DNA of 64,000 nt. Origin: Thauera terpenica 58Eu (lineage in GTDB: Bacteria; Pseudomonadota; Gammaproteobacteria; Burkholderiales; Rhodocyclaceae). Under the pieces are notes generated by a model. The model did not search any database and had not been told where the DNA came from. It worked only from the letters and a program-made list of their open reading frames with translations. Both the position numbers and the translations under genes were made by a program. Location: positions 282,330 to 346,329 of the forward strand of contig NZ_ATJV01000048.1 of the NCBI RefSeq assembly GCF_000443165.1. The letters are read 5' to 3'. Shown here in pieces: positions 19,096 through 32,446 of the stretch (positions are counted from its first letter, which is position 1; every line of letters begins with the position of its first letter).

Positions 19096-19141
19096 TGGTG
19101 CCGGCAATAGGAATCGAACCCACGACCTTCTGATTACAAAT
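19096..19141 (-). repeat. attL: 3' fragment of tRNA-Thr
   Basis: 46 bp identical to the 3' part of the intact tRNA-Thr gene at 31420-31465. It stops in the anticodon loop and lacks the 5' half, so it is not a functional tRNA. Confidence 0.9.
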
Positions 19142-27499: not shown

Positions 27500-27756
27500 G
27501 GGTGCGTTCCTAGCCGGTGATGGTGACCGGGATTGTGCGGGCTCTTGTTGCCTTTGTCATCCCGGGCGTCGTCGGAATCGGCCAGTGGAATCATCCTGGT
27601 AATCGGCCACAAAAACCCGCCACGCACCGGGTCTGGCGGTTGGCGTTGCGTGTGCCGCAGGTGGCCGGCAGCCTTTGGGGCGAGGATCTGTTCTGCGCGC
27701 GAGACTGCTATGCTCATGCGTTGCCCCTACCCAGCATCGCTGCAAGCAACGCGCCC

Positions 27757-30609
27757 ATGACCCCAGCCCAGCTCATCGCCAAGTGGAAGAACAACCCGCT
27801 CTCCGAGCGCGCCGGCTCTCAGCCCTTCTTCCTCGACCTCTGCAGCATGCTCGGCGTGGATCCGCCGAACGATCCGGACAGCTACTGTTTCGAGCGCGGC
27901 GCCACCCGCACCGGCGCCGGCCACGGCTGGGCCGACGTGTGGAAGCGCAGCCACTTCGGCTGGGAGAACAAAGGCCCCGGCGGTGACCTGTCGGGGGCCC
28001 TGCGCCAGCTTATGACTTACGCGCTCGCGCTGGACAACCCGCCGCTGCTTGTTGTCAGCAATCGCGAGATCACCCAGATCCACACCCACTTCACCGGCAC
28101 CCCGAGCGAGACCTATACGATCCGCCTCGAGGACGTCGGCACGCCGGAGAACCTGCAGCGCCTGCGCTGGCTGTTCACCGATCCCGAGAAGTTCCGGCCC
28201 GGCCGCACGGTGCTCGACATCACTAAGGATGCCGCCGGCCGCTTCGCCGACATCGCGCAGTCCATGACCGAGCGTGGCCACGATCCCGCGAAGGTGGCGC
28301 ACTTCCTAATCCAGTCCTTGTTCTGCATGTTCGCCGAGGACATCGGTCTGCTTCCGAAGAAGCTTTTCGAGCGCGTCATCGCCAAGCGCCAGGGCGACCC
28401 AGCCAAGCTCGCAGTGTCGCTGGCGGAGATGTTCCAGGCGATGCGCACCGGTGGCGACTTTCTCCTCGAGGACATCGCCTACTTCAACGGCGGGCTGTTC
28501 GAGCACGTGGAAGTCCTCGAGCTGATCCCCGGCGAGATAGAAGCCCTGCTGGCTGCCAGCCGCATGGACTGGAGCGCAATCGAACCGTCGATCCTCGGCA
28601 CCCTGTTCGAACGTGGCCTGGATCCGAAGATCCGCGCCCCGCTCGGTGCGAACTACACCGACCCCGGCACGATCATGAAGCTGGTCCGCCCAGTCGTCGT
28701 CGAGCCGCTTGAGCGCGAATGGGAGGCTGCCAAGGGCAGGATCGCCCCGTTGGTCGAGAAGTACCATGCTGGTGGGAAGGGCTCCCAGAAGGCCGGCCAG
28801 GATGCGCAAGCCCTGTTCCTGGGCTACCTCGAGCGCCTCAAGAACTTCCGCGTCCTCGACCCCGCATGCGGCTCCGGCAACTTCCTGTACCTTGCCCTGC
28901 GCGCGCTGAAGGACCTCGAGCACCGCGCGAACCTGGATGCCGAAGCGCTCGGCCTGCATCGCCAGCTCACAATTGAGACCAGCCCTGACAACGTGCGCGG
29001 AATCGAGATCAACGCCTACGCTGCCGAGCTCGCCCGGGTGACGGTCTGGATCGGCGAGATTCAGTGGATGCTCAAGCACGGCTACGACTGCCGGCGAAAC
29101 CCTATCCTCGCGCGCCTCGACCACATCGAGAACCGGGATGCGCTGCTGAACGCGGACTGCACCGAGGCGGAATGGCCGGTGGTCGACGTGATCGTAGGCA
29201 ACCCCCCGTTCCTTGGCGACAAGCGCATGCGCAGCGAGCTCGGCGCCGAGATGACCGCCAAGATCCGCGCCTGCTACGAGGGCCGGGTCCCTGGCGGCGC
29301 AGACCTCGTGCTCTACTGGTTCGAGAAGGCTCGAGATCAAATCAAGGCCAAGCGCTGTGAGGCAGCCGGCCTCGTCGCGACAAACTCGATCCGCGGTGGA
29401 GCAAACCGAAAGGTGCTGGACCGCATCGTCGAGAGCACCCGCATCTTCGAGGCGTGGAGCGACGAGCCGTGGGTCAACGAAGGCGCTGCCGTGCGCGTGT
29501 CGCTCGTGTGCTTTGGAGGGCGCGCCGGCGCAGCGCTCGACGGGCGCTGTGTGCGGGAGGTTCATGCGGACCTAACAGCAGCCGATGGCGGGCAACCCTC
29601 GTCTGGAGACCTAACCACCGCCAAAGCTCTCACCGAGAATGAAGGTACAGCGTTCCTCGGGATCCAGAAAACAGGGCCGTTTGACATCCCAGGTGAGCTG
29701 GCGCGCCAATGGCTCCGATTTCCAAACCCGCATGGCAGGTCGAACTCGGAAGTGGTGAAGCCATGGTTCAACGGGCTGGACATCACGCGGCGCAACCGAG
29801 ACTTCTGGATTATCGACTTCGGCGTCGACATGAAGCAGGACGAGGCTGCACTCTACGAGGCGCCGTTCGGATACGCGAAGGAGTACGTGCAGCCCACCCG
29901 CGTCGGAAAGCGCGAGGCGAGGACCAACGAACAGTGGTGGATCTTCCAGTGGGCGCGCCCCAAGATGCGAGCGGCCGTCAGAGAAATACCCCGCTTCATC
30001 GTGACGCCCGAGGTGTCGAAGCATCGCGTGTTCGCATGGGTGCACCACCCAATCGTGCCGGACAAGAACCTGACGGTCATCGCGCGCCAAGACGACACCA
30101 CTTTCGGAGTCCTGCACTCGCGCGTCCATGAGCTGTGGGCCCTGCGTCTCGGCACCAGCCTCGAGGACCGGCCGCGCTACACCCCCACGACGACCTTCGA
30201 GACCTTCCCCTTCCCCGCCGGCATGACGCCCGCCGACACGGCCGCAGGCGCGCCGACAAGCCCCCAATCCGAGGCTATCGCCGCCGCCGCCCGCCGGCTC
30301 AACGCGCTGCGAGAGAACTGGCTTAACCCGACCGAGTGGGTGGAGCGCATCCTGGAAGTGGTACCGGGCTTCCCCGACCGGATCATCCCCAAGTCAGGCC
30401 ACGAGGCCGAGCTGAAGAAGCGCACGCTGACGAACCTCTACAACCTGCGCCCGGCGTGGCTCGACAGCGCACACAAGGCGCTCGACGCTGCGGTAGCCGC
30501 AGCCTACGGCTGGACCGACTACACGCCCGACATGCCCGACGACGAGATCCTGCGCCGACTGCTGGCGCTGAACCTGGAGAGGACAAACGCCAGCCCGCGC
30601 ACTACCTAA
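27757..30609 (+). CDS. MmeI-like type IIL restriction-modification enzyme (single-chain endonuclease and N6-adenine methyltransferase)
   Basis: 950 residues. The N-terminal PD-(D/E)XK nuclease has D60 and E70-x-K72 with the same D-x9-E-x-K spacing as MmeI (GWADVWKRSHFGWENKGPGG). The middle helical connector leads to a gamma-class N6-adenine methyltransferase: motif I VLDPACGSGNFLYLALRAL (about residue 365) and motif IV VIVGNPPFLGD (about 481). The C-terminal target-recognition domain and the family end motif TFETFPFP follow. In this family one protein cuts and one strand is methylated, and specificity comes from the recognition domain. ATG 27757 is the family start; the open frame before it is not similar. 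No separate R, S or helicase gene is nearby. Confidence 0.9.
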   Translation: MTPAQLIAKWKNNPLSERAGSQPFFLDLCSMLGVDPPNDPDSYCFERGATRTGAGHGWADVWKRSHFGWENKGPGGDLSGALRQLMTYALALDNPPLLVVSNREITQIHTHFTGTPSETYTIRLEDVGTPENLQRLRWLFTDPEKFRPGRTVLDITKDAAGRFADIAQSMTERGHDPAKVAHFLIQSLFCMFAEDIGLLPKKLFERVIAKRQGDPAKLAVSLAEMFQAMRTGGDFLLEDIAYFNGGLFEHVEVLELIPGEIEALLAASRMDWSAIEPSILGTLFERGLDPKIRAPLGANYTDPGTIMKLVRPVVVEPLEREWEAAKGRIAPLVEKYHAGGKGSQKAGQDAQALFLGYLERLKNFRVLDPACGSGNFLYLALRALKDLEHRANLDAEALGLHRQLTIETSPDNVRGIEINAYAAELARVTVWIGEIQWMLKHGYDCRRNPILARLDHIENRDALLNADCTEAEWPVVDVIVGNPPFLGDKRMRSELGAEMTAKIRACYEGRVPGGADLVLYWFEKARDQIKAKRCEAAGLVATNSIRGGANRKVLDRIVESTRIFEAWSDEPWVNEGAAVRVSLVCFGGRAGAALDGRCVREVHADLTAADGGQPSSGDLTTAKALTENEGTAFLGIQKTGPFDIPGELARQWLRFPNPHGRSNSEVVKPWFNGLDITRRNRDFWIIDFGVDMKQDEAALYEAPFGYAKEYVQPTRVGKREARTNEQWWIFQWARPKMRAAVREIPRFIVTPEVSKHRVFAWVHHPIVPDKNLTVIARQDDTTFGVLHSRVHELWALRLGTSLEDRPRYTPTTTFETFPFPAGMTPADTAAGAPTSPQSEAIAAAARRLNALRENWLNPTEWVERILEVVPGFPDRIIPKSGHEAELKKRTLTNLYNLRPAWLDSAHKALDAAVAAAYGWTDYTPDMPDDEILRRLLALNLERTNASPRTT

Positions 30610-30665: not shown

Positions 30666-31313
30666 AATGATGGACGAGGTTGCCGGCCCGCACGAAGCGC
30701 CTCGCCTTGCCGCTGCTGACTCGACACCTGCAGCAGGCCGGAGAGGCTGACACATCCGCCCGACAAGGCCAGAGCACCACACCGACCGTCTGCGCGTCCT
30801 GTGCGCTGTCCTGGAGCGCCTGAAGATCCGGCTGACCTAGTCCGCTTCGCAGGAAGCGCGGGATCTCGTACTTCCCTGCTGCAGGATCACGCTGGCGCTA
30901 TTGATGGCGACGGCTGCGCGAGGCGAGGCGCGCGAACACGGTGCAGTGCGACGGCCGCGCGGCGCGCGCTGGCCGCGACTTGCGATCCAGTTCTTCCACT
31001 ACAGGCGACGGGCGACGCACAGGCCGCAGGGCGACCACCAGGGCGACGGCCAAGCCAAGGGCGAGCAGCAGATAGGTTATCGCGTTCGTCGCCAGCAGGG
31101 CCGCAGGTTGGCAGGTGTCGTTCCTGGCGGTGCTATCCGGCCTGACCGAAGCAGGAAAGCAGGAGACTGCATTCCTTGGCTTGGGACCATCTGAGTCCGC
31201 GCACTGCGCCGGTTACGCTGTAACCGCAGGCCGACCGCGACCACCACCAGGATGCCGCGCGGCGACCGAGCGCCCGAGGATGCGGCCCGCACCAGCGAGA
31301 CCGGCCGCGTGCG

Positions 31314-31364
31314 TGGCTACACGGCGGCTACATCGCCCGGAATTGGCTACATGGTGGCTACATG
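31314..31364. repeat. Putative integrase arm-type sites, right
   Basis: GGCTAC at 31315, 31326, 31345 and 31356: two pairs with 11 bp spacing. 31344-31364 equals 19261-19281. The motif matches the left-hand set. Confidence 0.6.
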
Positions 31365-31419
31365 AACCCGAAAAGCAAAAGACCAACCCCGAAGAATTGG
31401 CGTAAGTGCTTGAATTTAT

Positions 31420-31495
31420 TGGTGCCGGCAATAGGAATCGAACCCACGACCTTCTGATTACAAATCAGCTGCTCTACCAACTGAGCTATGCCGGC
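31420..31495 (-). tRNA. tRNA-Thr (anticodon UGU), intact copy and attR
   Basis: 76 nt. Acceptor stem GCCGGCA/TGCCGGC, D-arm GCTC-AGTTGGTA-GAGC, anticodon loop TTTGTAA (UGU), T-arm with TTCGATT, and encoded CCA. It closely resembles the threonine tRNA of gammaproteobacteria. The 3' 46 nt were supplied by the island; the 5' half and promoter are from the chromosome. Confidence 0.95.
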
Positions 31496-31550
31496 GCTGG
31501 CTGCGGATTATAGCGCAAGCGGGCGCGAGAGGTTGCATCAGGCGCTTGCG

Positions 31551-31580
31551 TCGATAACTGTACATCTATACAGTTATCGA
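31551..31580. promoter_or_regulatory. LexA-box (SOS) dyad
   Basis: CTGT at 31558 and ACAG at 31570 with 8 bp between (CTGTACATCTATACAG), which fits the CTGT-N8-ACAG SOS consensus. Perfect 12 bp arms (TCGATAACTGTA and complement) flank a 6 bp centre, extending beyond the usual LexA site. A possible promoter (TTGCGT, 17 bp, TACAGT) overlaps it. It lies 23 bp before the ATG of the next gene. Confidence 0.85.
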
Positions 31581-31602
31581 ACCCCCGCTGCCGGAGACGA
31601 CC

Positions 31603-31764
31603 ATGACCCAGACCCTGCTCACCCGCCTGCTCCTTGTCAGCGGCCTGCTTGCCGGTTTGATGTTCGGCACCGGAAACACTGCAGCCGGGATTACCGTGGC
31701 CGTGCTTGCGGGCACTGCAAGCTGGCTGCTGCGCTCGCAGAACCTGCTCAGACACCAACGCTAA
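31603..31764 (+). CDS. SOS-regulated small membrane protein
   Basis: 53 residues. GGAG 7 bases before ATG 31603. It is almost entirely two hydrophobic helices: LLTRLLLVSGLLAGLMFG (residues 5-22) and AAGITVAVLAGTASWLL (residues 27-43), with a short basic C-terminus (RSQNLLRHQR). No homologue is recognised. The upstream LexA box and small hydrophobic nature recall SOS-induced division inhibitors or membrane peptides (SidA, TisB); that link is inference only. It is convergent with proQ (17 bp between stops). Confidence 0.7.
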   Translation: MTQTLLTRLLLVSGLLAGLMFGTGNTAAGITVAVLAGTASWLLRSQNLLRHQR

Positions 31765-31781
31765 AGCGCGCACAAACGGCT

Positions 31782-32288
31782 TCAGCGGCCAAACTTGGTC
31801 ATGAGCTGCTGCAGCTTTTCGGTGCGGCGCTTTTCCGCGGCCTCGGCTTCACGCTTGTCCTTTTGCTGCTTGGCGACGGCTGCAAAGCGCTCCTTCAAGG
31901 TGGTCGATGCGTGCGTGCGCTGCTCTTCGGTGACCTCGCCGACGGGCTGCCCCTCAAGGTCAAAGCGCTGCTGAGCGCGCTCGACCGCCTTGAGGTAACG
32001 AGTGGAGGCGGTGTGCATGCGCATCGCGGCACGCAGGCTCTTGCGATCGAGATCGGGCATGCGCTCGGCGATGCTGGCGTCGATCTTCAGTGCCAGCGGC
32101 TTGCAGTCCCGAAAGGCGGAAAACTCTTTTTGCAAACGCTGCAACAGGGCGCGCGGTTCGATGCGCTTACGCGGCGCCGTGCCCTCAACGGCTCCAACAG
32201 ATTCAATGGCTTCTGAAGACTCAGGAGCGATTGAATCTGGAACTGAAGCAGGTGCTGCGGCGGCAATGCTGTCTTTTTCGGTGGTCAT
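31782..32288 (-). CDS. proQ: ProQ/FinO-family RNA chaperone
   Basis: 168 residues. ProQ/FinO domain at about residues 45-140: LLQRLQKEFSAFRDCKPLAL, KIDASIAERMPDLDRKSLRA and AMRMHTASTRYLKAVERAQQ are typical. The tail is rich in charged residues (KQQKDKREAEAAEKRRTE) and likely helical. ProQ binds structured RNAs and sRNAs and controls their stability. A low-complexity N-terminus (Ala/Ser/Pro) precedes the domain. Start ATG 32288 with weak SD. Confidence 0.9.
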   Translation of the reverse strand: MTTEKDSIAAAAPASVPDSIAPESSEAIESVGAVEGTAPRKRIEPRALLQRLQKEFSAFRDCKPLALKIDASIAERMPDLDRKSLRAAMRMHTASTRYLKAVERAQQRFDLEGQPVGEVTEEQRTHASTTLKERFAAVAKQQKDKREAEAAEKRRTEKLQQLMTKFGR

Positions 32289-32446
32289 CAGGAACGAGAA
32301 CTCTTGCAGGCGGGGCGCGGTCGATCTCGCCCCCGGGTAGTCAGGCCCCGTATTCTACCCGCCACGGCCGCGGCTCAGGCGTTCAAGGGGCAGCACAGCC
32401 TCATTCAGGTCGGCGCAGGGCAGATGGGCCCGTGCCACACGCCCTG

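Follow-up and report, generated by a model that had tools for sequence, protein, structure and literature searches.

SOS effectors beyond the well-studied bacteria are poorly known. Among those described, TisB of E. coli is a short membrane peptide under SOS control. DinQ is likewise an SOS-controlled short membrane peptide, overexpression of which is described as depolarizing the membrane and lowering ATP (PMC3567139). According to published accounts, a division inhibitor is a usual member of SOS regulons, SulA is not conserved widely, and several bacteria respond to DNA damage with small integral membrane proteins that target FtsW or FtsN (PMC13396833, PMC4211646). SidA of Caulobacter crescentus is described as an SOS-induced, very small inner-membrane protein that acts on FtsW (PMC4211646), and YneA, SosA and ChiZ as small membrane proteins, induced in the SOS response, that inhibit division at a late step (PMC13396833); YneA, ChiZ and DidA are each described with one transmembrane helix (PMC13396833, PMC4211646). 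Here we analyze a 53-residue ORF from a 64-kb stretch of Thauera DNA (the window, i.e. the whole stretch that was analyzed), the predicted product of which resembles SidA, YneA, SosA, ChiZ and DinQ in being a small membrane protein with a putative SOS operator in front of its gene.

Results

Organization of the locus

The original prediction had placed a LexA box within a perfect 12-bp dyad, followed by a Shine-Dalgarno element and the ATG of a 53-residue frame, next to a tRNA-Thr gene, and all of these elements were found at the places proposed (Table 1). The spacing of 23 bp given there is close to the 22 nt that separate the dyad end from the ATG; from the end of the box there are 19 nt to the GGAG and 29 nt to the ATG. 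GGAG-like elements precede most of the orthologues, as judged by eye from the upstream sequences, and a scan for consensus promoters at the ORF found none.

Table 1. Features of the locus in window coordinates
Feature	Position	Strand	Remarks
Perfect dyad, 12 pairs with a 6-bp center	31551..31580 (31551-31562 pairs with 31569-31580)		encloses the LexA box
LexA-type box CTGTACATCTATACAG	31558..31573		14/16 against an E. coli-type consensus
Shine-Dalgarno GGAG	31593..31596	+	6 nt upstream of the ATG
53-residue ORF, predicted two-helix glycine-zipper membrane protein	31603..31764 (ATG at 31603; stop ends at 31764)	+	
Helix 1, residues 2-23	31606..31671	+	zipper G14/G18/G22, plus G24; AlphaFold2, alignment of 38
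Helix 2, residues 26-52 in the model	31678..31758	+	W41 and R44; membrane part probably about residues 27-43
tRNA-Thr(TGT)	31420..31495	-	divergent neighbor of the ORF
TATAAT	31507..31512	-	likely -10 element of tRNA-Thr
ProQ/FinO-family gene	31782..32288	-	convergent neighbor of the ORF; family search
3' part of tRNA-Thr and its exact repeat of about 46 bases	31420-31465; 19096-19141		
MmeI-like restriction-methylation gene	27517-30609	+	Pfam MmeI_Mtase, 111 bits

Some features of the surroundings may be recorded in their own right. Further similar sequence lies to the left of the distant repeat of the tRNA-Thr 3' part, and the two copies probably mark the borders of a genomic island of 12.3 kb that was inserted at tRNA-Thr and that contains the MmeI-like gene. 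In 15 of the 28 Thauera loci a tRNA-Met gene lies past tRNA-Thr, at a distance of approximately 70-545 bp; this gene is absent from the window, as would be expected if islands separate tRNA-Met and tRNA-Thr. A contig filed as viral, L100 (IMGVR_UViG_2791355018_000001), ends in an apparent bacterial flank with tRNA-Met, tRNA-Thr and the small gene, and may represent a prophage or island near the same site in another Thauera.

The predicted protein

AlphaFold2 models place helices at residues 2-23 and 26-52 (pLDDT 77.6, pTM 0.40) or, with a wider alignment, at residues 3-23 and 26-52 (pLDDT 69.3, pTM 0.34), confidence for the ORF being moderate; together with hydropathy they support the two hydrophobic helices that had been proposed for the product. 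Among 38 members of the family, Gly14 and Gly18 are invariant and position 22 is Gly or Ala, with Gly at all three positions in 31, whereas Gly24 and Arg44 are each present in 37 and Trp41 in 29. Charged residues at positions 9-23 and 29-40 occur in none of the 38. The GxxxGxxxG pattern is a classic small-residue helix-packing motif. The product is predicted to be an inner-membrane two-helix hairpin with a strict small-residue zipper at positions 14, 18 and 22, and the positive residues Arg8 and Arg44 suggest a topology with both ends in the cytoplasm. Clustering of conservation on one helical face, evaluated at 100 degrees per residue, was not significant (permutation fraction 0.23 for the first transmembrane helix and 0.60 for the second).

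Selection on the protein was evaluated with 26 Thauera loci, after omission of two of the 28 (L008 and L011) for length. The value of pN was below that of pS in 130/130 pairs, with mean ratios of 0.30, 0.46 and 0.28 in the three length groups; the mean ratios for the two shifted frames were 0.92-2.88.

Orthologues and distribution

With the single protein as query against 61 genomes, matches at E ≤ 1.7e-4 were found in 28 of the 29 Thauera genomes, including that of the window; the Thauera genome without a match (G011) is 68% complete, and the best match in the other 32 genomes (E 0.018) lies within a long frame. Two chance matches from this search (L029, L030) and five second copies of included loci (L031-L035) were removed before the counts. 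The protein of one locus (L002) is identical to one listed under Thauera linaloolentis. A profile search of 199 genomes of the bacterial family gave 30 places at E ≤ 0.0011, six in Thauera and 24 outside it. Twenty-two of the latter, distributed over nine other genera, are short, similarly built frames that are preceded by a LexA-type box, and two (L057, L059), which lie within longer frames and have no box, were dropped; the next weaker full-length match (in G222, E 0.0084, box 12/16) was fetched after the set had been fixed. Credible copies are present in 29 of the 199 genomes, a count from which weaker relatives may be missing.

Among 399 genomes of the order, with the best 16 or fewer candidates per genome scored, at least two matches were obtained, both within the same family. 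The names among the matches listed for profiles run against 5.8 billion proteins were Thauera, Azoarcus, Aromatoleum, Pseudothauera, Cognatazoarcus, Rhodocyclaceae and an unspecified proteobacterium, with no named relative from outside the family among these matches. A scan of a genome contig collection returned no relatives with the single protein as query and six with A2.

The original prediction had put at stake whether the frame is conserved in relatives, and had proposed to look for homologues behind LexA boxes; in the relatives found the frame is conserved, in the Thauera loci compared it is under purifying selection, and the boxed homologues are those counted above. Its remark that the gene is too short for most annotation pipelines is correct in part, as some relatives are annotated, albeit as 'hypothetical protein'. 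The ORF belongs to a real family of LexA-boxed small membrane proteins that spans ten genera and has no name.

Searches of Pfam, NCBIfam, PHROGs and PADLOC with the window protein gave nothing at E ≤ 1, in agreement with the earlier failure to recognize a family. Its relatives gave scattered weak matches, the best having E values of 0.0022 (Pfam), 5.1e-5 (NCBIfam), 0.024 (PHROGs) and 0.012 (PADLOC). Foldseek detected no similar PDB structure at E ≤ 0.001, and a profile search of PDB sequences gave partial matches, the best of which (E 0.0029) was to a photosynthetic reaction center L chain, in two pieces (i-Evalue 1.4 and 30). A search of open-licence PMC full text found neither a description of this protein family nor a report of an SOS effector in Rhodocyclales.

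Some of the weak matches bear on alternative identities for the protein. Holin models are matched weakly by two members in each of Pfam and PHROGs (best E 0.023 and 0.092, respectively), and SOS control of a short two-helix hairpin would suit a holin-like or prophage-derived SOS lysis factor that was captured by the chromosome. We regard this origin as very improbable, given that the window protein has no match in 50,697 phage and 72,556 plasmid records and that the only IMG/VR match carries tRNA-Met and tRNA-Thr beside the gene at the contig end, which reads as host flank; on this evidence a phage origin was rejected. The other matches of interest are to the model of V-type ATP synthase subunit K, which 13 of the 38 members match weakly (best E 5.1e-5). 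They would fit a regulatory hairpin subunit that modulates another membrane complex, i.e. a transporter, a respiratory enzyme or ATP synthase, during DNA repair, as would the strict conservation in helix 1 and the turn, which is indicative of a specific partner. Among eight members scanned singly, however, the highest score was 23.4 of the 101 bits required by the subunit K model, over 35 of its 102 positions, so that the similarity is likely compositional, and none of the 38 members has a carboxylate at positions 29-44. An identity as an ATP synthase c/K subunit was rejected on these grounds, and we consider the broader proposal of a regulatory subunit to be somewhat unlikely.

The LexA-type box

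Within a single genome the CTGT-N8-ACAG pattern carries no weight. It is expected by chance 0.67 times per window, and the whole genome contains 21 such sites versus 15 for a reversed control pattern; this near-chance rate makes comparison with relatives necessary, and it is conservation that makes the case. The best upstream match to the E. coli-type consensus scores at least 13/16 in 43 of 49 orthologous loci, at least 12/16 in 48 and at least 11/16 in all 49, so that an operator-like sequence lies close upstream of the start codon throughout. These counts cover loci with at least 60 nt of upstream sequence, L015 (27 nt upstream) being omitted from the box counts only. Resampled upstream sequence equalled the box score of a locus in at most 2 of 300 trials, whichever the locus. 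As background, 11 of 1784 random 150-bp stretches from the same loci reach 12/16; these stretches were scored on both strands, compared with one strand for the upstream stretches, and the 11 are unmasked and may include a few true boxes of short loci. The distance from box to start is 15-54 nt in 45 of the 49 loci, and two boxes are present in some (L004, L005, L011, L055).

In Thauera, the box is found in a constant setting: tRNA-Thr(TGT) adjoins the gene in 27 of 28 loci, the remaining contig (L015) beginning 27 nt before the gene, and the ProQ/FinO gene is present in 28/28. In the window the box also lies upstream of the divergent tRNA-Thr, and it could in principle serve that gene, or be a leftover operator, with the ORF a chance frame. 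The loci in other settings decide against this. No tRNA-Thr is found within approximately 1.5 kb in 13 of 48 orthologous loci, and proQ was seen in none of these 13, the settings of which include tRNA-Ser with a sugar-transferase-like gene, a dihydrolipoyl-dehydrogenase-like gene and a D-aminoacyl-tRNA-deacylase-like gene (neighbors named by eye); the box is kept in all 13. When sliding 16-base pieces taken from the intergenic region of the window were compared with the relatives, two peaks of at least 12/16 appeared in Thauera, one in the region of the tRNA-Thr TATAAT (25/26 loci) and one at the box (25/26). The window box was matched at 11/16 or better in 9/9 further loci with tRNA-Thr nearby, in one of which (L050) the tRNA stands on the other side of the gene, and in 13/13 loci without it, compared with 0/13 for the tRNA promoter core and 0 to 5 of 13 for pieces that do not overlap the box. 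The surroundings of the TATAAT are conserved where tRNA-Thr is present and not where it is absent.

Because the box precedes all 49 loci, including all 13 that lack tRNA-Thr or proQ nearby, we assign it to the 53-residue gene; its role as a tRNA-Thr element was rejected on the 13/13 versus 0/13 comparison, and a chance frame was rejected by the coding selection in 130/130 pairs, which leaves this combined alternative scarcely credible. Judged from these sequence comparisons, the tRNA-Thr neighborhood is incidental and is not required for the box.

Probable SOS operators in the genome and in relatives

The genome encodes LexA (TIGR00498, 226 bits against a cut-off of 110.95), and boxes of the same operator type stand at known targets: lexA is preceded directly by CTGTTTAAAATTACAG and followed by imuA and a Y-family polymerase-like gene, and the recA box, CTGTATTTATATTCAG, starts 100 bp upstream of the first codon. 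Two further sites were noted in this genome. An integron integrase (L083, G000:C53:4683; TIGR02249, 465 bits) carries the LexA-type sequence CTGTATTTATGTACAG at its probable start or immediately upstream, and an AT-rich LexA-type box, CTGTAAAAAAATACAG, lies near a gene that by eye is ABC-transporter-like (L084, G000:C92:131524) and may be due to chance.

In 17 family genomes without the small gene, nine boxes of the form CTGTATATNNNNACAG were found, in six genomes; five of the nine precede frames that, by eye, read as lexA (two), dinB, intI and uvrD, and inspection behind all nine revealed no comparable two-helix ORF. In a relative without the small gene (L093, G033:C1:1016566), a box, CTGTATATATCCACAG, lies 28 nt upstream of a frame that resembles MraZ, the gene for which opens the division cluster. 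Since like boxes precede lexA, recA and the integrase gene here and lexA, dinB, intI and uvrD in relatives, the motif is very likely the SOS operator of the Thauera lineage. Since, in addition, the box stays with the 53-residue gene in relatives across several genera, it is very probable that LexA represses the gene and that DNA damage induces it; the SOS control that had been proposed from one locus thus gains comparative support.

SOS control also raises the possibility of a depolarizing peptide of the TisB/DinQ kind, i.e. one that is made after damage, lets protons leak through the inner membrane, lowers ATP and slows growth. The small size and hydrophobicity of the protein and its SOS box are as in DinQ. 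However, the lack of charge inside the helices in all 38 members and the strict glycine pattern suggest packing rather than leakage; the leader is short, as the box-to-start distances imply, and the occluded-start arrangement of type I systems was not seen; the leaders of three loci that were folded are not specially structured (z +0.74 to +1.37); and no Rfam antitoxin RNA was detected in 31300-32400, although an antisense RNA of another family may exist. No toxin family occurs among the nine Pfam families (28 members) or the 22 NCBIfam families (38 members) matched at E ≤ 1. A depolarizing peptide is, in our assessment, unlikely.

SulA and ImuA in the family

SulA, as defined by NF007892, scores over the cut-off in none of the 199 family genomes, the E. 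coli positive control scoring as it should. The broader Pfam SulA model (PF03846) is over its cut-off in 46 of the 199, including this genome; the frames listed have at least 214 residues, which suits ImuA, and in this genome the SulA-like match was identified as ImuA, with 221 bits where the cut-off is 150. The remaining PF03846 frames are probably ImuA as well. The 53-residue ORF is not recognizable as SulA, no NCBIfam model matching it at E ≤ 1. Most family genomes show neither SulA over the cut-off nor, with credible copies in 29/199, the small gene.

Discussion

Our preferred reading, held tentatively and at a little short of an even chance, is that the protein acts from within the membrane as an SOS division brake, by binding a component of the divisome, for example FtsW. 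Division arrest and loss of membrane potential had both been named as possible effects in the original prediction. In the mechanism preferred here, DNA damage would relieve repression by LexA, so that the 53-residue protein is made; the product would form a glycine-zipper hairpin of two helices within the inner membrane; the hairpin would likely bind a division protein, of which FtsW is a candidate; and septum formation would be held up until LexA is restored. Binding to a membrane partner fits the predicted structure because of the two-helix zipper with its strictly kept residues in helix 1. The absence of SulA over the NF007892 cut-off from the 199 family genomes, and the published cases of small membrane proteins that target FtsW or FtsN, also favor the reading. 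Against a division brake, YneA, ChiZ and DidA are described as single-helix proteins whereas two helices are predicted here, and many relatives manage without both SulA and this gene. The PF03846 matches in 46 of the 199 genomes, the lack of conservation clustered on one helical face, the moderate AlphaFold2 confidence and the negative promoter scan likewise count against it.

A wider form of the division-brake proposal concerns the lineage as a whole. In Thauera and Azoarcus, which have no recognized SulA, the SOS checkpoint may be exerted by a new family of two-helix glycine-zipper proteins of about 50 residues that jam septal wall synthesis in the membrane part of the divisome, the gene and its LexA operator having moved jointly to at least four chromosomal places; we consider this possible, but on balance doubtful. 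A LexA-boxed family that is present in at least 10 genera and has no domain model offers a direct candidate for the division checkpoint that is missing from this lineage, and if the division-brake reading is true, evolution has reached the same end by way of a two-helix zipper.

Comparison with the described systems places the protein near, and apart from, each of them. As with SidA, YneA and SosA, a small membrane protein under SOS control is indicated by the sequence, the box and the helix prediction; the single helix of that group is not found. SidA is described as having 29 residues (PMC4211646), compared with 53 residues and two predicted helices here, and is set apart by that description. 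YneA and ChiZ are described with a LysM domain and SosA with an extended extramembrane helix (PMC13396833), for either of which the 53-residue protein is too short. DinQ has one helix and is a type I toxin paired with an antisense RNA, in contrast with the two predicted helices, the glycine zipper and the lack of a detected antisense RNA here. SulA of E. coli, described as acting on FtsZ (PMC13396833), fills the division-stopping role that is proposed for the present protein. By its sequence, the protein represents a new family, the functional kind of which, that of SOS-controlled small membrane proteins, is already known, and which is set apart from SidA, YneA and DinQ by their published descriptions.
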